Source: Asterias amurensis (lineage: Eukaryota > Echinodermata > Asteroidea > Forcipulatida > Asteriidae). From it: 64,000 nt of DNA. Under the pieces are notes generated by a model. It was not told the DNA's origin. It saw only the letters and a program-made list of their open reading frames with translations, and searched no databases. A program made the translations under genes and the position numbers. Positions 591 through 62,882 of the stretch are shown here, piece after piece (within the stretch, counting starts at the first letter, position 1; each line of letters begins with the position of its first letter). The stretch spans positions 16,264,012 to 16,328,011 of the forward strand of contig NC_092665.1 of assembly GCF_032118995.1 (NCBI RefSeq), written 5' to 3'.

Positions 591-2192
591 TCATGAGCTA
601 TGTAGCCCCATGTACTCATGCGCAGTCGTCTCTCTATCACCAAGTTCCATGTATTCTCTATCCCCGGGAAGTTCATATTCCCCATCGTCTGGCTCCCTGA
701 CGTCTGACACAGCTTTTCTGTCACTTTGTCGAGCTGAAACCTTCTTGACGAGTCGACCTGATCGACGAGCCATACTCAGTTTCCGTGGTATCGCGGTTTC
801 TCGTTGTATCTCACGAGATTGAGATTCGTGATATTTGGGGACCTGGTACCCATCGTCGTCCATCATCATCCCGTCTGAACCTCCTGCCTCCTCTGACGTC
901 ATTGGGGTGTCACGTGGTTCTTCTGAAGCGGAGACGACGCCCATTGGTGAGTTGGGCACCATTCTATTATCAATAGAAGTTGCATAAAAACTCGTCTGGC
1001 ATCCTTCTCCTTGTAAGCCTTGCCTTTGGTGTGTTGGCTTAATGGGGGGTTTAGGAGCGTTCAGAATCTTCCGTCTTTTAGTGATGCAGACGACCATTGC
1101 TATAACAGTTACAGCCACTGATAAAATTGCGATTACTACCCACATGTACAAGGGTATTGGCTGACTGCATTTCTCTGTGCATCCAGACACGCAACAGTCG
1201 TCGAGACTTTGCAATACAGTAACTGGCTCACTCGTTTCGCTAACACTGACGTCATTATGAGCTGTGCATCTAACCTGCAGACCAGTGCCATTTTCGTAAA
1301 CAGATTTCTTGACCATCACTAAAAATCTTTCTGCCTCGATAAACTCATATGTGTTGGATGCATTAATGTTCTTCCATTCCATCGACGAATCTTTAACCAA
1401 CCAATCATACCTCGTCACCGCTGGTACCGCGAACGCAACACATTCTAAAAGAAACGTCGACTCGGAACCGTCTTCATCTGGGAGGATACCAATATGAATC
1501 TTGACCCTGGTCGTCATAGGAACCCTCAGTGGTGAAGCCACCGTGCAGTTCGGACCTCTGTCTGTATCGTAACCAGCAATGCACATGAACTGTCCGTTAT
1601 TATCTGTTTCTGTGAGAACATGCAGGGTAATTAACTCCATTGCGCTTTGTATCGTTCTGATTTGGCGCGTTGGCTCCACTGACCAGGTAAGTTGTGATGT
1701 ACCGACTGTCATGTTTCCCGGCACTTTACATGTCAGCAAAATAGTTTCCCCTACCGCGGCATTTTCGTGTGGGTAAACCGTGCATACAGGAGTAGGGGTT
1801 TGGACAACCTGCAAATGTCCACAATTTGAAACTTTGTTTATGTCTGTAAGCCAACACGCGTACATCCCAGCATCACTGAACCGTACATTGCTAATCTGGA
1901 ACTGACTGGAGTTGCCGTTGAACGAGAAGGAGAACCGAGTGGTATCTACACCAGGAATCAAAGATGGTGAACGGCATACGCCAATACTGATGAAATAAGG
2001 ACTTGTGTCGCAACCTGACTTCGAAGATACCCAGGCAACACTTCCACACTCGTAGTCTTGGTTGAAGACGCACTTAAATGTTGCAACGCCCCCAACGGTA
2101 ACCGTAACATTTTCTGGATGTGCCAAGAGAATGCTAGCTCCTGTAAACGACACCTTTAAGCAGCAGAGGATAAAGACAGCCACTGTTTCCAT
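591..2192 (-). CDS. Intronless three-Ig-domain type I membrane receptor with tyrosine-rich tail
   Basis: A 533-aa open frame with no intron. Residues 1-19 look like a signal peptide. Three Ig-like domains follow, with Cys pairs near C41/C112 (preceded by DAGMYAC), C155/C204 (core Trp W170) and C251/C309, and several NxS/T sites. A Cys-rich stalk (about 333-342) precedes a transmembrane helix at about 348-372, then a stop-transfer TKRRK. The cytoplasmic tail of about 160 residues carries YQVP, YELP, YMEL and YMGL; the YxxP sites resemble SH2-docking motifs of adaptor-coupled receptors. It stands head to head with the Ig gene starting at 4410, and its third Ig domain resembles that protein's single domain. 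The exact family is not recognised; a recognition or adhesion receptor is inferred. The start is the only Met giving a full signal peptide. The lack of introns suggests an origin by retroposition, or the loss of introns. Confidence 0.8.
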   Translation of the reverse strand: METVAVFILCCLKVSFTGASILLAHPENVTVTVGGVATFKCVFNQDYECGSVAWVSSKSGCDTSPYFISIGVCRSPSLIPGVDTTRFSFSFNGNSSQFQISNVRFSDAGMYACWLTDINKVSNCGHLQVVQTPTPVCTVYPHENAAVGETILLTCKVPGNMTVGTSQLTWSVEPTRQIRTIQSAMELITLHVLTETDNNGQFMCIAGYDTDRGPNCTVASPLRVPMTTRVKIHIGILPDEDGSESTFLLECVAFAVPAVTRYDWLVKDSSMEWKNINASNTYEFIEAERFLVMVKKSVYENGTGLQVRCTAHNDVSVSETSEPVTVLQSLDDCCVSGCTEKCSQPIPLYMWVVIAILSVAVTVIAMVVCITKRRKILNAPKPPIKPTHQRQGLQGEGCQTSFYATSIDNRMVPNSPMGVVSASEEPRDTPMTSEEAGGSDGMMMDDDGYQVPKYHESQSREIQRETAIPRKLSMARRSGRLVKKVSARQSDRKAVSDVREPDDGEYELPGDREYMELGDRETTAHEYMGLHSS

Positions 2193-2836
2193 TTTAAAAG
2201 TTATCTAATTGACAACAACATCTATAATGACGGCTCAGTGCCAATTCCCACACCAATTATTAAATTGAGCCGTTCACAGATAATTGTTTCCTTCCCTGGC
2301 TTTCATTTTCGTTTATTTAAATATTTATTTCCTTTTGGAAATTTACATTTTTGTGTTTGTTGCCATAGAGGGCGCAATATTAACTGGCTCTGTGGAATCT
2401 TTATAAAACCTTCTAGGCGTATTACTTTTTGCTCAGGAACCCGTCTAACTTGCACAATGTCACCGAAGCAAGCAGCGATACTATAGTGTTTGCGTCTTAG
2501 ACTTTTTTCAGAACTGCAAAATGTAAACATCAAGACGTGTGCCTACAGGAAAAGGTTTTATAGGACCGGTGTGAGAGTTGCTTCATCCCCCCCCCCTTCC
2601 CCTCCCACCACACCCACCAATTTACGGAAAATTAAATGCAGAAGTTTCGTCTTCATAGAGCCCTCATTTGACTGAACTTCTTTCGGCCCATGTTAGCACC
2701 ATTAAAGTACACACATCGAGAAAACTAAATCCCTTCTGATGACACCTGCGTTAGAATCTGTAAGAAGTGAATACATTAAGCGTTCTCTTGTAAGGATGAG
2801 GACTGACGTCAGCACAATGCTGACATCCAATTGTCT

Positions 2837-27500: not shown

Positions 27501-30500
27501 TGTTTCTTGAAGTTCTTAAAATAATCGTTACCTGACAGTAGTTGCCCGAGTTGCCTGATTCTTGATCCTTCATTGAGGCTACCTTTAATGAAGAGAAAAA
27601 CAAAGCAAAATTTTATTTTACTATTTCGAGACAAGCATTCGTATCATTATCATGATGGTTTTCTTGTCTCTTTGTGTTGTTGTTAATGTATTTAATTTTT
27701 GTTTGCTTATATTTTGTATACAACTAGTATGGGATATGGTTTTATCATTTAGACGAGAAACCGAACCTTCGTCAGCAGAGGCATAAACACGGACAATCAC
27801 AAACATATCCATTCATTAATTTGTATAACTATATAGATGTGTTATATTGCCTAAAACAAATTTCTAGTGTACGATGGCAAATTTTGAGACATGTCCCCTG
27901 TTTTTCTCTGATTAAAGTATGGTCAGGTTTCCATTGCTTTTATGTTGCGCTCACCCCGTAACTGCACTGGTTCATCGTTGCGGTACCAGACTACTTCAGC
28001 AGCCGGGTGCTCCCTCATGTACCTTTTGCCATAGCAGTTCAATACAACGGTATGCATTGGAAGGACGTGCAGCTCTTGAATAAATGTACCGTCTGCAAAA
28101 CAGATATCAATCGCTCAAAATAATCAGAAAAAGTTGATTTGTTTCCTTTGTTGAAATCTAAGAGGATGGGGGATGAATTCCATTTTTAAAGAAGGATTTT
28201 CTTACTGCGTGATAAAAGATTTCAATAGTCTTATAAGACATTTCTTTTTTACACGGAAAACGAGGAGTTAAATTAAATTGAAAAATTAAGAGGGCTTGTT
28301 TTCACAAGAACTTAGATTGAATCCAGCCATTGGCCGCCAGTGATGAAACGTGCACGCGTGAAGAGCTATCATTGGCTGAATATAGTGCGCAGCGAGTCAC
28401 GTTATCAAAGATGGCGGCCTTTTTTTAGACAAAGTGATGTCATGTCAAATACAAATTACTGTTGCAAACTGGAAGATCACATTGAGATTAAATCGTTGGT
28501 GCTATGTGAAAAGGGGCTTGTCTGAGCTCATTTAGGTTTTTGATTTTTGCATACGAATCAAACAATTTTTTATTTTTTTCATTTATTTATGTATTTATTT
28601 ATTTATTTATTTATTTATTTTTGGGGGGAGGGGGAGAGGGGTACTTTCCATCCATCAGCTCCCACCTTTACATATCGGCGTTTCCAGACATTTCCCACTC
28701 TCCACGTCCTGCCCCATGCATTGTGCCCCGCTGCCCGGAGCACCACACCGTCGCTCGCGTAGTTGGACCCCTTCACCGCAGGTTACTGAACACATCTGCC
28801 AACTTGACCACTCACTCCAGTCGCTTAGGACTTTAAACAAAATATATATATATATATATATTAATTATTATTCAGAACCCTCAGTAAAACTTTATTTATC
28901 AAGATCTTACTGTTCTTTCTAAATGATAGATTTTACTGCTGAGTACTTTTTCAATACTATTTGCAACATGATCAATATGAAATTAGGTATCTGCCGTATA
29001 TCTGCTAAACATTCTCTTACCGCATTGGGTTTTTCTTTTTCTTTTTTTCGTGTGCCGACATTAACAAAAAAAACGTTAATGGAAAAAGGAAATGAATTGC
29101 CACATAGTTATTCAGATAAAAGTTCACATAAATATTGTTCCCCAAATTATACTTCACGGTGACCCCTGACCTTGTTCGACGCGATCATTTATGACGTCAT
29201 ACGGAGCGGCCACAGGAACCGGAACACCGCCGGCTGCTTTGAAGAAATAAAATAAACACCAACTTGAAATTGTGTCGTGAAACAAAAATGATGTCAATTG
29301 TACTCTGCATCTCTCTCTCTATCTCTCTTTCCCTCTATCTGTCACTCCCTTCTTTTATTTGACTGCTTAAAGGCAGTGGACACTATTGGTAATTACTCAA
29401 AATAGTTATCAGCATAAAACCTCACTTGGTGTAACAAGTAGAGGGGAGGTTGATGGTATAACACATTGTGTGAAATGGCTCCATCTGAAGTGACGTTGTT
29501 TTCGATGTGATAAGTAATTTTCAACGAATTTTATTTCGAGACCTCAGATTTAGAATTTGAGGTCCCGAAATCAAGCATCTAAACGCACACAACTTCGCGT
29601 GACACGGGTGTTTTTCCTCATAGTCTCGCAACTCCGACGACCGATCGAGCTCAAATTTTCACAGTTTTTTTTATTTTATGCATATGTTGAGATTGAGATA
29701 CACCAACTGGTCTTTGACAATTACCAATAGTGTCCAGTGTTTTTAATTAGCCTTTGAGAATTAAAAATACTCTGTTGTTATACAGGGTCGAAACGATGAT
29801 GATGCATTTAACAATTTTGTTGATGTCATACTGTTAAATGAAAAGTTGATTAATTGACACCGTTTTAACACTAAAAGTTTCCATAATCGGACGACCTCTG
29901 ACCCTGCTGTCAAATGCCTTGATTGCTGACGTCATATGGGGCGGCAGGAATTGGTCTTCCACCGCCTGACACAGATTATTCAAATTAACACCAAGATGAA
30001 ATTTTTATAACAGAAAAAAAATCTCATCAAATCATATTTTGTCTATTAAGTCATGTTTTTAAATAATCTTCCCAAAAAGGAAAAAGTTTGCAATGTGTCG
30101 TACAAATTAAATTAAACTAAATATATTGCAATCTGTTCAAAATTCAAACTGTTCCCGTTATTACCTGGCGACCCTTGACCTCGTCCAATGCCTTGATTGC
30201 TGACGTCATACGGGGCGGCGGGAGCAGGTCTACCCCCGCCTGACAAATAATCTTTATGAACACAACAATAAAATGTTAAGAAGAAGAAAAAAAACAATCT
30301 CATCAAATCATACTTTTTATTCTTAAATATTTACTTCCCTTATTATATGACTATGAAACTGGTAAACAAAAAGAAATGTGTCGTACAAATTAAATGAAAT
30401 TAAATATATTGCCATCTGTTCAAAATTCAAATTGTTCCCATAACTTACCTGGCGACCCTTGACCTCGTCCAATGCCTTGATTGCTGACGTCATACGGGGC

Positions 30501-32165
30501 GGCGGGAGCAGGTCTACCACCGCCTGACAAATAATTTTTATGAACACAACAATGAAATGTTAAGAAGAAAAAAAACAATCTCAGCAAATCATACTTTTTA
30601 TTCTTAAGTATTTACTTCCCTTTTTATATGACTATGAAACTGGTAAACAAAAAGAAATGTGTCGTACAAATTAAATGAAATTAAATATATTGCCATCTGT
30701 TCAAAATTCAAACTGTTCCCGTTTTTACCTGGCGACCCTTGACCTCGTCCAATGCCTTGATTGCTGACGTCATACGGGGCGGCGGGAGCAGGTCTACCAC
30801 CGCCTGATAATTTTTATGAACACAACAATGAAATGTTAAGAAAGAAAAAAAACAATCTCATCACATCATATTTTTTTATTCTTAAATTTTTACTTCCCTG
30901 ATTTATTAGACTACTGAAACTGGTAAACAAAAAGAAATGTGTCGTACAAATTGAATGAAATTAAATATATTGCCATCTGTTCAAAATTTAAATTGTTCCC
31001 ATAATTTACCTGGCGACCCTTGACCTCGTCCAATGCCTTGATTGCTGACGTCATATGGAGCAGCGGGAATAGGTCTACCACCGCCTGTTACGGAAAATTC
31101 ACTCAAATTAAAACAACACCAACATCAAATGTTGAAAATTTAGAGAAAACAAGTAATTAACCTAGGAAAACTGAATGGGTCAATTTTAATTTTAATTTGG
31201 TTTGAGGAAAGACAAATAGACTGGAGTGTGACTGGAACCAATGCCCCCCCCCCCCGGATTAATGGACACCAATTGGTTCAAATCCAGCTCCAGCCATTTT
31301 GTCTTTGTTCAAACCTAAACATAATCAAAAGAAAAAAGTATAACTGCTAAAATAAACTTCCAAAAATATAAATCGAAAGTTATTATTATTATTATTATTA
31401 TTTTTCGTTTGTTTATTTTTCGGGGGTAGGGATGGTGGTTCTTGACAAAGATCAAAAGTCGTTAGCCTACCGTTCAAGGCAGCTCCGGCCGAGTCATAGG
31501 GATCGTATCCACCTGGTGAGAAAACATTCCAACAAGAGGAAAATAAACATTTATCAAACTCCAACTAAAGTTAATTGTAATGTTGGCATTCGGGACTTGT
31601 CACCGGGTATTTCAACCTGGATTGCTTCCATCGATTTGATCTTATAGACTATACAACTTGTTTAATGTGGGTTACGTTGTACCTTAATAAAATTTATGAT
31701 AATATTAAACATATAACAAATGAAATGGTTCAGTCTTGCTAAAAATACAATCACCGGGATCGTCATAACCCAACACACATCGACGTCTGGTGTTGCAGAT
31801 GGTGGACACAATTATAGGCCCACTAACTACCTGTTTGGTCAAGTGTCTGTAAACATCCAAATCAAACAGTGAACTTATTGTAATAAGGACCGATCGAGTT
31901 CCAGTCGAGACTACAAATACTACTGTCGCGGTGACTAAAAATACATGCGCTGGTTAGCCTCGCCAAGGCATGCTATATATACTCATCAGATTCAGATTAT
32001 TTATAGATTCAAATCGAAGTAAATTAATTTAACTTATTCATCATTATGCTTATGCTTTGCTAACATAAACTATGCAATGGTTTTACCTTGAGAGTTAGAC
32101 GCCGTCACAAAGAATAATATCAGTACACAACTGACTCTCGTCCCAAGAAATCCTCTCGATGACAT
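24586..32165 (-). CDS. Secreted/membrane TSP1-Ig protein with amplified exon array and Pro-rich C-terminus
   Basis: Exons on the minus strand: 32165-32087 (signal peptide, [14 protein letters not shown]), 31512-31471, four 75-nt repeat exons (31084-31010, 30803-30729, 30523-30449, 30239-30165), a diverged one (29233-29171), TSP1 28830-28666, Ig 28092-27955, 27582-27532 and 26600-26466, a 30-nt exon near 26171-26142, and a last exon ending at 24586. All junctions are phase 1-1, as in exon-shuffled extracellular proteins. The TSP1 repeat has WSEWSSW (C-mannosylation) and CSVTCG (O-fucosylation). The Ig domain has VVLNC, VVWY and DEGIYAC. The C-terminus is a Lys/Glu helix ([20 protein letters not shown]) followed by about 150 residues of Pro/Gly/Ala. 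The acceptor of the last exon is uncertain: phase fits 25298, which would add a hydrophobic segment [13 protein letters not shown] as a membrane span. Family not recognised. Confidence 0.72.
25449..25680 (+). repeat. tRNA-derived SINE in intron
   Basis: A B-box-like GGGTTCGAATCCCCC lies near the start, preceded by tRNA-like sequence. A tail contains GTTAAACCGATGTTTGTGAG and GATTATATCCCCTTGTGGG. It lies between the last two exons of the TSP1/Ig gene and opens non-genic frames on the plus strand. Confidence 0.5.
26817..27202 (+). mobile_element. MITE family A copy 3
   Basis: TTAA-AGGCAGTGGACACTATTGG at the left and CACTGCCT-TTAA at the right; about 378 bp. It lies in an intron within the Ig-domain part of the TSP1/Ig gene. 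Confidence 0.9.
29171..31084 (-). repeat. Tandem exon-duplication array (about 280-bp units with 75-nt exons)
   Basis: Exon starts at 31084, 30803, 30523, 30239 and 29965 are spaced 281, 280, 284 and 274 bp. Four exons encode near-identical 25-residue peptides of the form [20 protein letters not shown] plus GQGSP, each bounded by phase 1 GT-AG sites. The introns are also nearly identical, so the amplification is recent. The copy at 29965 has an in-frame TGA after SNQGI and no donor at the usual place, so it looks dead. A more diverged sixth copy (29233) reads [14 protein letters not shown] and can splice with a donor at 29170. Confidence 0.88.
29367..29746 (+). mobile_element. MITE family A copy 4
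   Basis: TTAA-AGGCAGTGGACACTATTGG at the left and ACCAATAGTGTCCAGTGTTT-TTAA at the right. It is inserted within the exon array, between the dead copy and the diverged sixth copy. Confidence 0.85.
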
Positions 32166-51665: not shown

Positions 51666-54600
51666 ATGGGCACGGACAGTAACAACAGAGCTGGGAGTGG
51701 GGCGGCATACACACGCTTTGCTGAGGAAATGGACATTGACGCTGTAGATCTTAACGTGAAAGGAGCGCCGTCCAAAGTGACTGGTCTTAAACTCTTCTGT
51801 TTAGAACACTGGAAAGTCTTGATTGTTCTTGTGATTTCATTTTGCTGCTTCGGCATCGGCATTATTCTAGGACATTTTTTCGCTGCGAGCGCTACGGTCA
51901 CCAGCCAGAACGGTTATCATAATACCACGGCGTCGACTCCAACGGCGAAACCGACGTCAACTAAGTCTAGTGGAGATTCGGGGATCACAGTGGGACCGCC
52001 GAGTGCTAAACCGTCAACAAACTACATGGCTTTAGTTCATGGACATATTCAAAAGTCGAACTTTCCTACTAATTTAAAGTAAGTGGCTCACTAAAGACCA
52101 TGTGACTCATATTTGCTAATGAGATGTGTGGACGGGACTTCCTAAACTTTATTTTCATCCCAGCTGGAACTTGTCCTGTCACATGCCCTGTGGCTTAACC
52201 AATATAAATGCGTTATAAATAAGTCAAGAACAAAGTAAAAAGTAAAAACAAGTAATTATCAAAAGAAGAAAGAAACAAATCCTTGAATTAAATCGACTGA
52301 TTATGATCAGTCAATCACTAGCTTTGTTCCAAACTTCCCTCCAGACTCACCTACTGTGTAAATCAGAACTGAATAAACATTTCTCTTGTGTCTCGCTAGG
52401 CACGAGCCGGCACATTATAAACGCCAAAGTGAATATTAAAGTGGTTTTGGCAAATTCATATTATTTTGACTTGAACGTTATGTATCACTGGCTAATTCCA
52501 GTTTATTTTTGATGCCACAGAAATTTCACGACCCTGCCCCATCACGCTGGATCGTCAGAAAATACGCGTCAAGTCGACAGAATCTACAGGGATTGGAGGA
52601 GCTATGGATTTGATGTCGCAAAGAAAAGTTATTTAGTGTCGTTATCAAGGCCGAATCCGTGAGTAACTGTAATATTTATTCTTTGTTCAACGCAAAATGA
52701 ACCATGGAGTATCACCCTTTTTTAGGCATCAGAAATATTTGTTTGCTGTGACCTAAAAGTATCATGTTCCTTTCTTGGTTCTAACAAATCTGTAGGTGAG
52801 CTTTGCGGTAGCACCATGTGAAAATCTCTTTTGTGTAGTGTTGGGTCTGAAAAGAACCAGTGGTTGACAAATCAGAACTCCAGTATTTGTTTGAACAAAT
52901 ACCCACTGATGTGCAGGATTTTTTGGTTGTTGGGTTATTATAGTTTTGAACCATAAGTAAATTTTAAAACATAGCACTTCAGTTTAAGCTCAAGGGTTTC
53001 AAGCTATGATTTTGAAAACAGTGCCTACTCTTTTGGTGCTTGGCTGTAAATCAAGGTGTTTGGGGCCAAAGCTGAGGCAAAGCTAAATCTGTGGTGTCAA
53101 TAACAGCTGCACAGTATAGCATGGGCATGGCGTTTAAAGCCCGAATGTTGTGTGGACGTGGGCTTCACTCTCAAAGAAAGTTCAAAATAACTATCGGACG
53201 TTGAAATTGGAATTGTTTTTGTGCTTGTCTTCTCTTTGCCTTGGGTTGAGATTAATGGAGAATCTTTTATGTTGAAGTAACAAAGACAAGATTGAGCTGA
53301 GAACCGAGAATCCCCAGGACTCATGATGTCTGTCTGCTTCTTCTTCACATAAATCAATAAATCAATCAATAGTTTTTATTTAGCATCTTGAGATGAAGTT
53401 CCAAGGCCAACGTTGCCAATAACAAAGTATTCATTAACTGTGTTTCATTACAGTGTTGTGTTGTCTGTTTAATGTTGGTGAACATATTGTTTTTGTCTTT
53501 TTGGTGTCATTTTAATAAAGTAGGGCCTAATTGATTTCATCTTGAACTGGACACCTTTTGTTTCAGTGGTCCCAAAAGAATCTGTCAAAAGTTTGGTGGG
53601 GTCAAGTTGATGACTTGTGTTGACGAGAGTTGCTTTATGCTCCCCCCCCTCCCTGAAAAATGGACCAAACCAAAACTGAAGCCCATCCAGTTGTTAAGGC
53701 CTTGTTGCCCTGAATAAGTTCAAGTTAGGTTTTAAACCTTGTACTTTTTTAATTAAATTTTGACTTTTAAAAAAGTCTGCACAAGCACTTTTGATATATT
53801 TTATTAATGTGGTTTTAAACTTTGATGTCTATTTTTTTTTTATTGCTTTCCAGAGCCAAGCCAAACAAAATCACCATTTTTGACAGTGTTACAGGGGCTG
53901 ATAAAGATGTGTTTACTCCTAATGACACTACTACATCTCAGATGCTTCAGCCCTTTGTAGTTTATGGCACTAACGCATCAATAACAGTAAGTCTCCTGAA
54001 ACGCATCGGAATTTTGAACATGGAGGGTTCTCTAAAACAATATTGGATGTACACAGGCCTGTGAAAGCTCCACTGTTTTTTTTATTGATCAGGCACATTT
54101 TTTAATTCAACTTTGTTTCCATAATTTATTTCTTTTCTCTCCTTAGCATGCCTTATATATCTCTGGGCAACAATAATATATGACTACAATAATGTGAGAT
54201 AGGCCTAGTTACTGGATTAATGACATAATTGCGTGACGCGTGCTCACTTGACGGTACACGATCATTCTTACATCATGTAGTATTTCAGCTCTTTTTTAAA
54301 GGGTCTACTCCCACTCAATTTGGGAAGGTAGTCTTTTGTGCTCTACCAGCCAGGCTCCTATAGTGGACGCTACCCATGCCTACAAGTACATCCTTACAGA
54401 CTGTGCAGGGGGTAACCCTGTGGCATTGTACCCACAGTTGATTGGAGTACTGAGCCCTAATCAGTAAACTGTAGCCCTTGCCTTGAAAAGGCTGTGCGGC
54501 CTGGTGATGTAAGGCAAAATTGTTATAAAAAAATATAAAAAAATTCAATGAAATAAAACAAATAATTAAATGAAACATATAACCATAGCTCGGCCATTAA

Positions 54601-57600
54601 TTTGTTTTATATATCAGCGCCTTGTATCCCATGACAATTTGGGGCTTTATAATTACAGTAAATTTATTTTTTACTATTAATTATTGCAGAATAAACCACT
54701 GTATGTCAACTACGCCACTAGACAGGATTTCAAGATCTTAAGAACACTGACACCGCTGGATTTCAGGGGATCGATTTGTATAGCTAGGCTCGGGAGAATC
54801 TCTCTAGCTCTCATGGTAAGACTTATGAACCTGGACAATTTGGGACACTAGGTGGCAGCATATTCATAATGCACAGTCCTGAAAATAATGGTTTGACATG
54901 GAAAGTTCCTCGAATCATCTGAGTGTCATTCAGTTTCATAAAAACTGCCAGGCCATGAGTCGGTTAAGCACAGATAATCCTAGCTTAGCAGAATTTTGAA
55001 GTGGGTTACAAGGCAAATTTGTTATCGTTTTAAAGGCACTAGACTCAAGTGGTTATTACTCAAAATAATTGTCAGCATAAAAACTTACTTGGTAACGAGG
55101 AATGGAGAGCTGTTGATAGCAAAGTTGTGATACTGGCTGAGAACCAAGTTGATGTTTTTTTTTTTTTTTTTTTTTTTTTCGTTTTTTAAAACACAGGCAT
55201 CAAACAGCAAAGAACAAGGAGGCTGCATCGGGCTTATAGCCTTTCCTGATCCTGAGCAATATAACATGCCTGGAGTTCAATACACACCGGCTAACACCTT
55301 CCCATATACCTGGTGGATGCCGTTACATGGTGTGGTACGAGAATCGGCTCGGTTTGGTCTCGGTGATCCATCATCTCCATTTTTCCCATCTCATGGTAAG
55401 AAGTTGTAATAATAATTATAATAAACCACAATATTTATTAGGCGCTAAAGGGACACGCTGCCTTGGATCGCCAAGTTGGTCTATGAAAGTTAAAAAATGG
55501 TTAAAAAATGTATATGGTTAGAAAGATGTTTTAAAAGTTGAATACATGTAAAATGATCCACACAAATATGTCTCGTAATTGCATGGTTTTCCTTGTACTT
55601 GGTCAAGTTTTTGACTCCATAAGATGGCCGACCGTGTGAGTACGCAAAGTAAAAGGAAAACCTCGCAATTTCTATTTTCTAGGCATACATGTTGTTGTGT
55701 GGATCGTTATAATCTACTTTTAAATCATCTTTCTAACCATATGCGTTTTATAACAAACGGTTTCAGACGCTTTTCATAGACCAACTCGCCCGATCCAAGG
55801 CAATGTGTTCCTTTAATACGGTTATTTCTAAGCGCACATTCAGTATCAGACGGTATCGGTTGTCAAATGCCATAGAGTTGTGCAGTTGTACAAACCTGTT
55901 CATCACACCTCACTCAACCCCATACAACAAGAAGGTGCAAATTTCTCTCCTATTGTCAACCAATAAGTTGTGTCTATTCCAGTCCTAATTGAACTTTGAA
56001 CTCATTCTCTTATCCCCTCCTTTTCACTTCTTTAGACTGGACACCAAGGCAGCCTATCTCTAACCAAATTGAGGAGTTTCCAGTCCAGACCATAAGCTAC
56101 AATGACGCTACCGCTATTATCAGGTACGTGTAGGACAATTTATTCCAGCTGGATTTGCAGGGGTTCTTTTCTCTTAATTCTCTTACATTGCTTGAGACAG
56201 GCGCGCCAGAGTTGCGCCGAACAACTGCAACAGCTATACCTTCCCTTTAAGTAGTTTATTGAACTAATACCCTGCTGTGTACTGTGATCTAATTGTTGAA
56301 TCCATTGTCTCTGTCTGTAGGGCTATGGCTAATCCTCCGGCCTCAAATCCAGACTGGATCGGTAAGCTACAATTAGAAAAATACTATATGGGACCAGGGT
56401 TCCATGATCAGAATCGTAAACTCACTATGGAAGTGAACAATGAGATTAAACTGGTAAACATCACCAATGTCATCGCCACCATCAAGGGAACTGTTGAACC
56501 AGGTAAGTGTGTAGTTTTAAATTTTTTGATTTTGTTCATGCAAGTCACCAGACACGAGGCCTGAAGGCCACTTACTTTAAGGTGTTGGCTGCATTTTTTC
56601 TTTTTTCTGGGGCCGTTGCCACCTACTCCTTAACGAAGCTGTCATGCTTAAGAACACAAGTGTCCTTAAAAAAGTATGACCAGGACTGGAACCCACACTC
56701 TGCTGACCAAACACCAGAGCTTAAATCTTGTACTCTGAACCGGTTAAACTGTAGGGTTTTGTATGGTGAAGCAGCTGCGCTCAATTAACAATAATTATCA
56801 GTGATTTAATATGTTTTTATTGATTTTCCAGATCGCTATGTCATCATTGGTAATCATCGAGATTCATTGGCTCATGGAGTGGTGGATCCAGGATCAGGAA
56901 CCGTCTGTCTCCTGGAGGTCGCTAGAGTTCTGTCAGAGTTGATGGGAGAAGGTAAGTTTAGTAACCCTTAACACTAACCATGACACGTTACTTCAGAGGA
57001 AGCTGTTTCCCACTAACGTTTTATACTATCAACAGCTCTCCTTTGCTTGTAACCAAGGAAGTTTTTATGCTAGTAAATATTTTGAGTAATTACCAAATGT
57101 GTCAAGTGCCTTTAAAGTAGTACACTCTGACCTGAAAACTTTGGAAATGTTGGGCGGTCTTTTAAATGTTATTATTGGTAGCATGGTTGGCGTGTGCGTA
57201 AAGCGCTCGCCTCTCACCAAGGTGACCCGGGTTCGATTCCCAGACGGTGAGTTGAGTTGTGTGTTGGTTCTCTGCTGTGCCACAAGGGTTTTTCCAGAAC
57301 ATCCGGTTTTCCTCCCTCGGGAAAAATCAAACACTTGCGATATTGGCTGTGCTCCGTGGTCATAATGGGTTGATGTGGCTGGCAGCCAAAGGCGCCCTTG
57401 CATGCCTGCTTCTCGATCACGCTGTAGCCGCGTCCTTCGCAATTCAGCTCTTAGCTGCGAGTAAGGATAATTAGCCCCCCAAACTATTATTAAATTTTGC
57501 TCTTTGGTTGTTTTTTCTTGGTAGGATGGAAACCAAGACGAAGCATCATCTTAGCCAGCTGGGATGCAGGAGAAGACGGTTCCATCGGCTCCACAGAATG

Positions 57601-60600
57601 GATCGAGGTATGTTTTTTTTTGCTGCTGTTTGCTTGTTTGTTTGTCTTTCGGTTTGGGAAGGAGGGTGTAATCGCAGAACCAAGAAGGGTTTCCTCATCA
57701 TTCAAGATGCCAACTTTCTTAAAGAGTTTTCCTTAATTTCCTCAATCTCTTCAGGAGATCGAGGTACGTTTGATTTTGCTGCTGTTTGCTTGTTTGTTTG
57801 TCTGTTTGTCTTTCGGTTTGTGAAGGTGGGAGATAATCACAGAACTCAAAAGGGTTTACTCATTATTCAAGATGTTAAAGAGTTTTCCTTATTTTCCTCA
57901 CTCTCTTTAGGAGAATATGGAGAGACTTCACTCTAGAGCAGTTGCTTACATCAATTTAGATGAAGCTGTCAGCGGGAACTACAGCTTTGCTACTGCAGGG
58001 AGCCCTCTATTGGCTGAAGTTCTTTACCAGACCACTAAGGATGTAAGTTGTCTGAAATATCTGTTGGTTCTATTTTTTTTGAGAGAGAGAGAGAAGAGGT
58101 TGGTCAAAGGCAAATTATATCTTTGGTCTTGTAAATATTTTTGGAACTCTGTATAAATGTAGATGTACACAACTAACATGTGAACATTTCATTTCTTTAG
58201 GTGGTCGCATATTTTAGATATCGCTGAAAATCAGGAGCGAGAATGTCTATGAAGGAATAATTATTCTGCAGTTGGGATACAGTGAAGCTTCTCAGATTCA
58301 AATTTCAAAAACTTTTTTTTTCTTCCACAACCACATTCAAAGTTAAAGGATTCTTAATGCTATCGAGAGCTGCTATACTAACCCAGTAAGTTTTTATTGC
58401 CATTTCATTTAAGATTGATTTCCAAATGTATACCCATCCCTGCAACGTTATTTTAAACAACTTTTGTTTTATCTACCGACAGGTGGATTGTCCAGATCCT
58501 CTACACAGTAACATGAAGATTTATAACAACTGGGCCGCAAGGAGACCAGTAAGCATCACAAATCAACCTCAGTAAGTTGACCCCTTGGCATAATATTCAA
58601 GAATAGTTTAATACTCATCTTCTAATTATGTGACGTTACTTTCATTTTGTGTACAGCAGCGCCACTTGCGACGGATACCAGCGCTTTAAAAGTTTCCATT
58701 ATTATGATTATTGACAGTTCTTTTTCTCTAAACACAAAATTGAACAATGTGTAAGTGTAATTTCTTTGTGTTATTTTGTTTGTTCCTGTAAAGGATGGAT
58801 CCCCTCGGTAGGACCAGCGACTCTGCTGCATTCTTGATGTTGGCTGGAGTGCCTTCGGTAGACTTCAAATACACTTACGACGAGGTAAAGTCACAAATGT
58901 GTAGCCATTCATTCATGTATGTTAAAGGAACACGTTGCCTTGGATCGGTCGAGTTGGTCTTTGAAAAGCGTTTTGTGACCGTTTGTTATAGAATGCATAT
59001 GGTTAGAAAGATGATGTAAAAGTAGAATACAATGATCTACACAAATATGCCTCGAAATTGTGTGGTTTTCTTTTTACCTCGTCCAATAACACGGTCGGCC
59101 ATTTATGGGGGTCAAAATTTTGACTCCCATAAATGGCCGACGGTGATAGTTCGCGACGTAAAAAGAAAACCATGCAATTTTGAGTGATACTTGTGTGGAT
59201 CATTATATTCTACTTTTAAAACATCTTTCTAACCATATACATTTCATAACAAATGGTTTCAAACGCTTTTTATAGACCAACTCGTCCGATCCAAGGCAAC
59301 GTGTTCCTTTAAGTGTTAGTCAGAGGACTGTCTATAACACTCATAGTAGCAGTTGGGGTAATTTGTTTGTCCAATTTAATAGATCAGCGAAGTCTAAAAA
59401 CAGTGTTGTTGTTCATCGAGGCATCTCATACTGGACTAGTTTAAATGACTCTTAAATCTCTTAGATCTTAAATCTTCCCCCTCTCTATCTGTGTTTGTTA
59501 AAAACTTAAGACCTCAGTTCCTTGACTCTTATTCAAAGTCTAATGAGGTGTAACTTGTTAGTTGTGTTGGCCTTGTCTCATATTGTCTTGTCCGCTTCCT
59601 TTGTGCTTTGTCCTGTCATGGTTCCGTGGTCTGATATTTGTTTGTCCATAGGTTATGGTACAAAAGCGTTCTGCTTCACCTTACACCTAAATGTTGTTGA
59701 TAACTATTGAATCAATGTTTCAACATATTGTGTGCATTATTGTAATGAATAACAGCGTTGAACTAAATGTTACTGATAATGAGTGTCTAAAGACACCATG
59801 TTTTAAATTTAGACACCCTATTTTATCTGTCATTTACTTATAAACGAATTGTAAGTGAACAATTTGGACACCCAGTTGTTAAATTTCTAGCAAATTTTGA
59901 AACCCTTTTACCAAATCCTGGCCAAAACCTCGAGCACCTGTGATTTTAAATATCTTCAAATATCTTTTTGTTTAAGGGAGGCTCCTCATATTTTCTTTGA
60001 TTTTGGGTGGAACTAATTATTTTTTGTTCATCCCCAAATCAGTTAAAACATACCCAGTCAGTTTCGCTTGTGGTTTATTATTTGATATTTTTTGTTTTGA
60101 TCAGGGCTTTTACAACGTGCCGAATTTCCCATTATACCACACGGCTTGTGACAATGGTGTCCTGATGAGTTCTTTTGTGGACACTGACTACAACATCCAC
60201 GCCGCCGTGACGGAGGTTGCAATCAAGACGATCTTGAAGCTGTCTGACTCCCCTAAGCTTCCCATGGATCTTACTCATTATGGAGAGGCGTTAACGAGAT
60301 ACATCAACCAATTAAAAGCACAATATGGGGAGGTTCTAACACGGAATACGGTATCAACAGGTAAGACCTAAATACACTTTGCTTTTCTGACATTGTAGGC
60401 AAGTACCAAAAAAATGAATTCCCACCTTTAATATCCTTGAGCTGATTTCACAAATAGCTCAGATTGATCTTAACTGTGGATCCGTCTTAATTGCTTAGCA
60501 AATTAGTAAACTTACTGGTTACCATCATGTCTTTTGGGAGAGGTGTTGAATTTTAGTCTTGACAATTCCAACATTATACTCTGCTCATCTTCAAGACATG

Positions 60601-62882
60601 TGATCAAACAATTCACACGTCACTTTTAAGAAAAGTCTTCTCTGAGATGGGATGACAAAGTAGGAAAAATCTTCCCTTGCGCTACCATAGTGTGCCTTTT
60701 ACATGCATTTCAGTTGGCTGCCTCGTGAGACAAGACCTTGCTGGAACAATAATGACGTTCTTGCTCTGAGAACACGGCCCAATGTCATAGAGGTGCTGAA
60801 AGCTCAAAAAGTAGCCAAGCATAACAAAATTGTGCTTACCAGAATAAGGTAACCAGCTAAACTACCATGTCACAGGTGCCCTGCTCATTTCTGCTTAGCA
60901 GAAAGTTGTTAGGCAATATTTTCTGCTTTAGCAGCTTTATCAAATTTCACTCGGGACTCAGTGTAGTCTAACATTTGTTGTAAACTTTTCTTTTCTTCAG
61001 AACTTCTTGAGGCTTCTATTGTTGATTTCAGTGGAGCAGCTCAAATGTTCCAAGAGAAGTATAACGCCATCTTAGAATCAGAGTAAGTAACCACACAAAA
61101 AAATGTTTCAGCAAAGTTTGCCTTTTACTTAACACATTTTTGGGGTGGTTTGGTCCGCGCAGTGGTATCTTTCTTCACCTTCCACCTCTAGGACCCTGGT
61201 TCGAATTTGAATCACGCCAGTGGATTAGGTTTTCAGGCCCTAGCTGAACTCTGTGGTTTTCCCTGGAATAATTCTCTGGGGTTTCCTCTCACATCTTAAA
61301 CTGAAACTTCCTTCCTTGTCTTCTCTCCATTGGGTTTTATAACGATTAAGTGACTTGACAACTATAATAAATGTTTGGAACTGTATTCATTTATGTAAAT
61401 GTAATCATGCTTTATATTTCTACATTCATATATTCATGTATTCATAATGTATTATAACAGTCTCTTTCATAACAATACTACTTGTATTTTTGATGCAATG
61501 AACAAATTGTAACTTTTGCAAAATGTTTTCAATTTTGCCAAAACTGCTTTCTTTGTTGATTGTATTTGTAAAAGATTTCTAGTTGACTATGATTGCAAAA
61601 TCATAAATGTTATTATTTTTTGTCTATTTGGTGATTTAAATTGTACTCGTTGAGATTTGAATATGTATTTGTTTTGGTTGTTGTCGTGGTATTGCCTCCC
61701 TATAGCCATAATATTCTGTGCTGTTTATTTTTAAAAAGTGTACCTAATAATAACATGCATAATATTTTGCCTTCTTTCAACTTATTTCACATTTTGTTTA
61801 CCCTTTTCTGTTGGATTTAATCTTATTTTAGATTTGTTTGTCCTCAGAAAAGTCTGCTATATTTGTTAACAAATAAACTAACAACTCTAGTGAGGCTTAT
61901 ACCGTAGCTATGTACTTAAAAAGCAATTTCCTACTTTTTCCTAAATGCCAAATTTTAAAATGTTTAAAGTTAATTTAAAAAACAAACATTTTTTGCCAAC
62001 TTTTGAGGTTAAGACTTTTTGTTATTAGGCTTAAATTATCAAAAAGTGAAATTTCAAATTTATAACTTTTGAAATTGATCAAGACCGTAATAATGATATG
62101 TGTTTGGTTTGTTTCCCTTCATGGAATACAGTGAGCTGATGTTAAAAGAAATGAATGACCATATGATAGCAGTTGAGCGAGCATTCTTAGTCAATGATGG
62201 ATCAGCGGTGAGTCCTGACTCAAGGTAAGTGAAAGACGTCTTGGAAGATATCATCATGTTCTTCATCTACAATTTCGGTCATATCGCGCTGGGCCCCTGC
62301 AACAAAAAGCCCCCTTCTTTTTCTTTTTGTTTACGCCCTTCTATCTCTGCAAGCAATGAATGTTCTTTCTTCTGTATGCACATTTTTTAATATTTTAAAA
62401 GCCTTCTCTTTAAAACTAATCTATTGACCAAGAGAAATAATTAGTAACTTTGCGGGTATAACCATATGTAACTCTAAAGTAAATGTTTGAAACGTCGAGA
62501 CCGCACCGACTCTTTTCAGACCAAACAATCCCACAAAAGATATTTACACACGGTTGTACCCGAAAGTTTCTTCCTATTTATCCACACCATGCAAAGCTTC
62601 AAACAATACTTAAACCAATGTCTGTTCCCCAAAATTACAAGAATCGTTTTAAAGTCTCCAGATACCTCATCATATTTTCTTCTTGGTTTTTTCACTAGAC
62701 ACTTGATCTATGGACTGAACACAACGTCCGCTTACAAAGGAGCAGCTTTTAGTCCCATCGTCATGGCAATCGACGTGGCAACGGATACCAATGATTGGAC
62801 AAGCGTCAGACAAGCTGTAGGCTACACAACACTTGGTATCCAAGCAGCTACTGGTATCGTTAACGATGCCCAGGCGCACTGA
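51666..62882 (+). CDS. Transferrin receptor-like / glutamate carboxypeptidase II-family (M28B) membrane protein
   Basis: Sixteen coding exons: 51666-52078, 52521-52658, 53854-53986, 54690-54815, 55197-55395, 56036-56123, 56321-56502, 56832-56951, 57525-57607, 57911-58042, 58483-58571, 58794-58884, 60105-60360, 61001-61082, 62132-62224 and 62699-62882. All are GT-AG in phase, giving 802 aa (TfR1 760, GCPII 750). It is a type II membrane protein: cytoplasmic tail with YTRF at 15-18, membrane span at about 49-72, Ser/Thr-rich stalk, PA-like domain, M28 domain, helical dimerisation domain. Zinc ligands equivalent to GCPII H377, D387, E425, D453 and H553 are H435, D445, E483, D511 and H610, with spacings 10, 38, 28 and 99. 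The general base E424 is G482 (SWDAGEDG). [19 protein letters not shown] and VSPDSRHLIYG read as TfR-like. No RGD is seen where TfR1 binds transferrin. It is probably enzymatically dead or altered; TFRC versus FOLH1/NAALAD2 orthology needs a tree. Confidence 0.92.
55030..55140 (+). mobile_element. MITE family A copy 6 (half element)
   Basis: TTAA-AGGCACTAGACTCAAGTGG and CAAAATAATTGTCAGCATAA match the left half of family A. The right half is missing and a run of 27 T follows. It ends about 60 bases before exon 5 of the M28B-family gene. Confidence 0.65.
55444..55816 (+). mobile_element. MITE family B copy 3
   Basis: A diverged left end (CTAA-AGGGACACGCTGCCTTGG) and a clear right end (CCAAGGCAATGTGTTCCT-TTAA). 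It lies in intron 5 of the M28B-family gene and is older than copies 2 and 4 judging by mismatches between arms. Confidence 0.85.
56981..57115 (-). mobile_element. MITE family A copy 7 (half element)
   Basis: CACGTTACTTCAGAGGAAGC, then TTTGAGTAATTACC and AAGTGCCT-TTAA match the terminal third of family A. It lies just after exon 8 of the M28B-family gene. Confidence 0.6.
57174..57480 (+). repeat. tRNA-derived SINE in intron 8
   Basis: A strong A box (TGGTTGGCGTGTGCGTAA) and B box (GGGTTCGATTCCC) about 45 nt apart are followed by a tail of about 240 nt (GGTTTTTCC, CTGGCAGCC, CGCGTCCTTCGCAATTCAGC). It is the clearest SINE of the window and lies immediately upstream of exon 9. Confidence 0.75.
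57598..57910 (+). repeat. Intronic tandem duplication carrying a copy of an exon end
   Basis: Intron 9 of the M28B-family gene is two near-copies of about 155 bp (TTTGCTGCTGTTTGCTTG, TTTCGGTTTG, AGAGTTTTCCTTA). The second copy starts with GATCGAG, duplicating the 3' end of exon 9, and keeps both an acceptor (CTCTTCAG) and a donor (GTACGT). That outlines a possible 9-nt in-frame microexon, GAGATCGAG. Confidence 0.75.
58922..59312 (+). mobile_element. MITE family B copy 4
   Basis: TTAA-AGGAACACGTTGCCTTGG at the left and CCAAGGCAACGTGTTCCT-TTAA at the right. It is palindromic with a tight centre around 59116. It sits about 40 bases after exon 12 of the M28B-family gene. Confidence 0.9.
61143..61380 (+). 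repeat. tRNA-derived SINE in intron 14
   Basis: GTTTGGTCCGCGCAGTGGTA (A-box-like) and GGTTCGAATTTGAATC (B box) are followed by GTGGTTTTCCCTGGAATAAT and TTGGGTTTTATAACGATTAA. Confidence 0.6.

Follow-up and report, generated by a model that had tools for sequence, protein, structure and literature searches.

The 64-kb stretch of DNA analysed here (the window; C18:16264012-16328011 of the 491.5 Mb genome of the sea star Asterias amurensis) carries a gene for an 802-residue protein of peptidase subfamily M28B, which resembles both GCPII and the vertebrate transferrin receptors (TfRs). The protein retains all five ligands of the two-metal site, has Gly in place of the catalytic general base Glu, and carries in its cytoplasmic tail the YTRF motif found in most TfRs. 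On balance, these features suggest a pseudo-peptidase close to the TfR line that probably binds metal, is taken up by endocytosis and would serve as an uptake receptor or scavenger.

To our knowledge, it is unsettled how the main iron-uptake receptor of vertebrates evolved from a zinc peptidase. The TfRs by themselves represent only the end state, and the starfish and sea urchin relatives described below exhibit several intermediate residue states. In addition, relatives from a horseshoe crab and a scorpion carry a similar tail on proteins whose site is intact. The order of events thereby becomes testable with expressed proteins. Among titles and the opening lines of abstracts in the open-access literature, we found none that describes a TfR-like protein from an echinoderm in which the zinc ligands are intact, and an earlier description is possible. 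Sponge and clam NAALAD2 proteins have been called ancient or putative transferrin receptors in published reports (PMC7034838, PMC12896564).

Metal site, missing base and substrate pocket

Alignment of the window protein to the human GCPII ectodomain places H435, D445, E483, D511 and H610 (codons CAT, GAT, GAA, GAT and CAC) on the zinc ligands H377, D387, E425, D453 and H553, with spacings of 10, 38, 28 and 99 residues. All five members of the ligand set of active M28B enzymes of the GCPII kind are present by this alignment. The general base Glu424 of these enzymes is missing, and its position is occupied by Gly482 (codon GGA). The first-pass annotation, made from the letters alone, had named these ligands, their spacings and the Gly before E483, and all proved correct in our independently rebuilt gene model and in the alignment.

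The five zinc ligands of GCPII, the function of Glu424 as proton shuttle, and five substrate residues are named in a published account (PMC10794815). Replacement of Glu424 by Ala is reported to abolish GCPII activity wholly, with E424Q lowering Vmax 8-fold (PMC8538779), and Glu-to-Met changes are reported to have served as inactive controls (PMC9768917). The E424A and E424M mutants of GCPII (3bxm, 6s1x and others) likewise lack the base and keep the ligands. However, these are engineered proteins, whereas the state in the window protein is natural and is accompanied by changes to the specificity pocket. Specifically, the substrate residues R210, N257, Y552, K699 and Y700 of GCPII correspond to L267, S320, Y609, A753 and Y754, such that two of the five are kept, and T269 and Y272 are changed as well. 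Compared to GCPII and GCPIII (FOLH1 and NAALAD2), the window protein therefore differs in the base, in these five changed residues, and in its YTRF tail. N257 or K699 is also missing in several M28B sequences with an intact site, so the five-residue substrate set is characteristic of GCPII more than of the family as a whole.

There are 29 columns that are invariant (at least 97% identical) among 28 active-type rows, and the window protein departs from them at only two, which are the base itself and a Trp located two residues past the HRD sequence. Peptide hydrolysis has most likely been lost because the base is Gly and the residues equivalent to R210, N257 and K699 are changed. The residue directly after ligand E483 is Asp484. 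In a 49-row alignment, Asp is found here in all seven echinoderm-type rows (the window protein and P0002-P0007), whereas the remaining 42 have aromatic or other residues.

Gene structure and protein architecture

Rebuilding the gene from splice sites and reading frames yielded 16 exons on the plus strand (51666-62882). All 15 introns are of the GT-AG type, and the reading frame is unbroken through 802 codons. The spliced product is identical to the 802-residue protein assembled in the first-pass annotation, and it matches the public Asterias amurensis protein P0001, whose annotated name in that collection is dipeptidase, with 100% identity over 100% of its length. Features of the gene are as follows, with exons taken from the splice model and GCPII equivalences from the alignment.

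51666..52078, plus strand: exon 1, with the start codon, cytoplasmic tail, transmembrane helix (about residues 49-75; predicted model) and stalk
51708-51719, plus strand: YTRF tail motif, residues 15-18, within exon 1
52521..52658, plus strand: exon 2, where the protease-like domain begins (GT-AG, in frame)
53854..53986, plus strand: exon 3
54690..54815, plus strand: exon 4, with Leu267 at the GCPII R210 position
55197..55395, plus strand: exon 5, with Ser320 at the GCPII N257 position
56036..56123, plus strand: exon 6
56321..56502, plus strand: exon 7
56832..56951, plus strand: exon 8, with ligands H435 (56855-56857) and D445 (56885-56887); the open frame of this exon matches Pfam Peptidase_M28 at 2.4e-5
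57525..57607, plus strand: exon 9, with G482 (57569-57571), ligand E483 (57572-57574) and D484 (57575-57577)
57911..58042, plus strand: exon 10, with ligand D511 (57959-57961)
58483..58571, plus strand: exon 11
58794..58884, plus strand: exon 12
60105..60360, plus strand: exon 13, with Y609 (GCPII Y552) and ligand H610 (60138-60140)
61001..61082, plus strand: exon 14, helical domain, without RGD in the aligned block
62132..62224, plus strand: exon 15, part of TFR_dimer (Pfam)
62699..62882, plus strand: exon 16, part of TFR_dimer (Pfam), with Ala753 at the GCPII K699 position and the stop codon

Both Peptidase_M28 (2.6e-21) and TFR_dimer (5.9e-13) exceed their curated Pfam cut-offs in the complete protein, and the predicted model includes a single N-terminal transmembrane helix at residues 49-75. 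These features are consistent with a type II, single-pass membrane protein of subfamily M28B that would form dimers. The family likeness is above chance, because phmmer matches the protein to GCPIII at 2e-112, to GCPII from 1.5e-107, to NAALADL1 at 4e-99 and to TfR1 at 5e-57.

We considered that Gly482 might reflect an isolated assembly error or a pseudogene. This explanation was rejected because the 16-exon frame is intact, because Gly is present in six further proteins of the same group, and because Glu is present at all but one of the five further M28B loci detected in the Asterias genome. An assembly error behind Gly482 is also unlikely given the quality value of 48.51 reported for the published Asterias amurensis assembly from PacBio HiFi reads (PMC10625585), which we infer to be the assembly used here. 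Separately, a 156-base tandem duplication at window positions 57627-57947 extends from intron 9 into the start of exon 10.

Cytoplasmic tail

The YTRF motif of the window protein is located ahead of its one hydrophobic helix, and a YxRF/V tail signal combined with a single N-terminal helix is a trait of the TfRs. A Y[ST]R[FW] sequence is present in the tails of all eight members found of the window protein's own group. The tails of 120 TfR rows include 98 with YTRF and 17 with YQRV, YKRV or YRRV, and the remaining five, all from catfish, have YRDL-type tails or a longer start. Among 114 other M28B rows, three fit a looser pattern within the first 60 residues and none carries YTRF. Published reports state that YTRF controls TfR1 endocytosis, which the disease variant Y20H impairs (PMC10811203), and that the corresponding TfR2 tail sequence is YQRV (PMC12045970).

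The tail provides a line of evidence that does not depend on the phylogeny described below. Most likely, YTRF directs the window protein to cycle through clathrin-coated pits, and the protein would therefore serve as an uptake receptor or scavenger.

Base and ligand states among relatives

Protein searches returned 168, 170 and 1486 proteins, and the best 120 of each were listed. Among the best 120 of the 168 matches to the window protein, 102 have Glu at the base position and 18 do not. Eight of these 18 constitute the window group, in which, counting the window protein, the base position is Gly in seven members, Lys in one and Glu in none. The Gly members are from Asterias, Patiria, Acanthaster, S. 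purpuratus and Lytechinus, together with P0005 and P0007, and the Lys member is from the hemichordate Ptychodera. P0005 and P0007 are each encoded by a whole open reading frame, on contigs of 2,946 and 5,391 bases. These contigs are probably transcripts because the Asterias gene with its introns spans 11 kb.

Within the group, all five ligands are kept in Asterias only. The urchin proteins and P0007 carry E in place of D387 and D in place of E425, and the Ptychodera protein is missing H553. Across all 48 rows of the tree described below, D453 is the sole invariant ligand of the five.

Gly at the base combined with all five ligands occurs in five of the best 120 of the 168 matches. These are the window protein, a crab protein (Eriocheir, P0045), and the fungal proteins P0112, P0120 and P0110, the last of which was assigned by fungal motifs. 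Two Mucor-type fungal rows in the same set (P0108 and P0116) carry Asn at the base along with all five ligands. Judged by these residues, base loss with the ligands intact is not unique to the window group within the family, and the crab and fungal M28B proteins are separate natural cases lacking the base.

Comparison with vertebrate transferrin receptors

In all 120 TfR rows the base position is Gly, H377 is replaced by Q, D387 is replaced by K, and D453 is kept. Facts about the TfRs that the first-pass annotation had stated agree with these rows. E425 is kept in 82 of the rows and is D in the other 38, and H553 is kept in 17. This degenerate metal site, a TfR trait, is not present in the window protein, where all five ligands remain.

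TfR1 and TfR2 share with the window protein an M28-type fold, the TFR_dimer domain, a type II anchor, a YxRF/V tail, Gly at the base and D453. They differ in that the window protein keeps the five ligands and has no RGD motif, and that no iron-responsive element was found for its gene by the Rfam and pattern searches of the window described below. Moreover, the positions of GCPII K699 and Y700 are occupied by residues in the window protein and are gaps in seven aligned TfR rows.

A possible partner is offered by two transferrin-family loci in Asterias (C20:13006041-13019260 and C15:3588493-3597067), which we regard as candidates only. By eye, the C20 locus encodes two lobes with residues resembling iron ligands, at what we take to be the iron-ligand positions, and the C15 locus looks diverged. 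The sea urchin major yolk protein is a transferrin relative. A link to it was looked for, nothing usable was found, and no claim is made.

Other M28B genes in Asterias

A TFR_dimer domain search of the genome revealed four further loci (C10:0.424-0.440M, C1:17.14-17.15M, C1:30.17-30.18M and C1:33.69-33.70M). A protein search recovered the window gene, the same four loci, and a sixth at C12:10366018-10375181. More diverged M28B copies may exist in Asterias because the domain search missed both the C12 gene and the window gene. The four paralogs all read HDEEDH in joined tblastn pieces, such that their sites are intact, and those at C10 and C1:30.17M are close paralogs. Thus, apart from the window gene, the base Glu is kept at every M28B locus found except C12.

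The C12 gene is diverged and Met-rich, and was read in pieces only. Its pieces carry His at the position of H377, Gly in place of the base, Asp in place of E425, and D453, and a residue other than Asp stands at D387. By summed tblastn score, its best match is a TfR2 (223 bits), compared to 84 bits for the window protein. Neither an RGD nor a convincing YxRF tail exon was seen in this partly read gene. The C12 gene may be the echinoderm counterpart of the TfRs, or it may be drawn to them by a long branch.

The intact paralog at C1:33.69-33.70M includes a repeated exon end and splice donor (C1:33698040-33699019), with copies partly 112 bases apart, four of which were found by pattern and six pieces by tblastn. 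The possibility that these are alternative exons was dropped. Each pattern-found copy carries both the exon end and the donor, several are spaced 112 bases apart, and tandem duplication is likelier. The C10 paralog yields three similar matches.

Phylogenetic placement

The careful tree was built from 48 rows and 673 columns, with the tail and six site columns left out. One fungal row with a long branch (fungus_Bipolaris) was removed from the careful trees and from the counts of base changes and invariant ligands, reducing 49 rows to 48, and the Asterias paralogs are represented by pieces joined from tblastn matches. The window protein groups with Patiria and Acanthaster (100/100), and all seven Gly members fall together (100/99). 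A wider clade of 19 rows (98/89) unites these seven and Ptychodera with the vertebrate TfRs, two nemerteans (P0009 and P0015), the scorpion Centruroides (P0011) and the horseshoe crab Tachypleus (P0022). When the TfRs are removed, a 12-row clade persists (97/90), with the window group and Ptychodera joined at 96/90. When the C12 pieces are added, the clade has 20 rows (87/89) and C12 joins the TfRs (96/98). However, the C12 row is 38% filled, has a branch length of 1.81 and an odd composition, and carries a long-branch warning.

In the approximately unbiased (AU) test, holding the TfRs with GCPII was rejected (p 0.0019), and keeping the window group plus Ptychodera apart from the TfRs was not (p 0.228). 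A count of base changes gave two, a number that depends on weakly supported nodes and predates the discovery of the C12 gene. The phylogeny thus bears out the placement of this TfR-like protein in a clade with the TfRs and with intact enzymes, but a direct pairing with the TfRs is only weakly recovered (80/39).

The nemertean, scorpion and horseshoe crab proteins of this clade keep all five ligands and, unlike the window protein, the Glu base. The scorpion and horseshoe crab proteins both have a YTKW tail, and these two arthropod rows suggest that the uptake signal is older than the loss of catalysis.

Proposed function and alternative explanations

In the reading that we favour, the window gene would lie near the root of the line to vertebrate TfR1 and TfR2. 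The retained two-metal site, with all five of its side chains, might be structural or might help to hold a ligand. The likely order is that the tail arose on intact enzymes, that the base was then lost, and that metal ligands were afterwards lost in various branches. The earlier proposal that base loss preceded loss of the metal site survives as the most economical order within the window group, as judged from the base and ligand states of relatives, because the ligands appear to have been lost in different ways among its members. The proposal that the gene is an evolutionary intermediate gains from the clade shared with the TfRs and from the YTRF tail. However, the gene is better described as a living cousin that keeps an older state than as an ancestor, and the two nearest starfish are without two of the ligands. 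We find doubtful a more specific scheme in which the protein is a living step from enzyme to TfR, with an endocytic ectodomain whose loaded two-metal site binds without cutting, an ancient enzyme pocket that captures ligand, release of metal or ligand in acidified endosomes, and a history running from the tail on an active peptidase through base loss to metal loss.

Several observations weigh against the favoured reading. In sequence identity, NAALADL1 and GCPII are closer to the window protein than the TfRs are. The pairing of the window group with the TfRs falls to 76/36 with Ptychodera added and is lost once C12 is included, leaving the window group unresolved beside them. The AU test rejects placement of the window group with NAALADL1 only marginally (p 0.045) and does not reject placement of the TfRs there (p 0.050). 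In the two nemerteans the tail Tyr is missing, and the sequence reads TRW or SRW. Full ligand retention is an observation from one species, and the nearest relatives, Patiria and Acanthaster, have lost D387 and H553, such that retention in Asterias may be due to chance. Asp484 could be a substitute base. No RGD is present anywhere in the window protein, and the aligned block reads IVD. An RGD[FYS] sequence is found in 115 of the 120 TfR rows, with the five catfish rows lacking it, and in none of the eight group members. RGD elements of TfR2 have been tied to transferrin binding in a published report (PMC12045970). Transferrin binding by the window protein should not be assumed because the RGD of most TfR rows is absent. 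Finally, the Rfam iron-responsive element has no match in the 64-kb window. A strict stem-loop pattern for this element likewise found none in the 10,107 bases 3' of the stop codon, in the 1,665 bases 5', or anywhere in the window, where the end of the untranslated region is not known and the pattern has no positive control.

Some of these points are accommodated by an explanation in which the base was lost independently in the window group and in the TfRs, the true TfR counterpart lies elsewhere, for example at C12, and the window gene encodes a separate pseudo-peptidase. This is a serious possibility, short of being probable. It is consistent with the weak node between the window group and the TfRs, with the affinity of C12 (Gly at the base, D for E425) for the TfRs in both tree and tblastn score, with the separate gain of Gly in crab and fungi, and with the Lys of the hemichordate. 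However, the placement of C12 is unsure, its partly read gene shows no convincing tail exon or RGD whereas the window group has the tail, and the wider clade holds with or without the TfRs. It is unlikely, though conceivable, that the protein is a former enzyme that is metal-free in vivo and works through protein-protein contacts only, as do vertebrate TfRs, with the Asterias ligands a chance remnant. The loss of two of five ligands in the nearest two starfish, the two substitutions in the urchins, and the invariance of D453 alone fit this account, but the Asterias protein has all five ligands at near-GCPII spacing and conforms at 22 of the 23 other columns that are invariant.

Decidedly less likely is a metallopeptidase that is still active, with Asp484 or a bound water network as new base and a changed specificity, for which the dipeptidase label would be right. 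The five ligands and the equivalents of Y552 and Y700 are kept, Asp484 is confined to the echinoderm-type rows, and the E424Q change in GCPII is reported to lower Vmax just 8-fold. Nevertheless, Gly has no acid group, the E424A mutant of GCPII is reported dead, and R210, N257 and K699 are changed. Furthermore, the ligand set is altered in relatives that share this Gly and Asp, which would be unexpected under conserved chemistry.

Additional features of the window

A long open frame on the minus strand (window positions 591-2204) encodes immunoglobulin domains (Ig_3, 2.4e-13) and, by eye, a transmembrane stretch. A tandem array at positions 30092-31087 consists of 3.5 copies of a 281-base unit with 93% matches.
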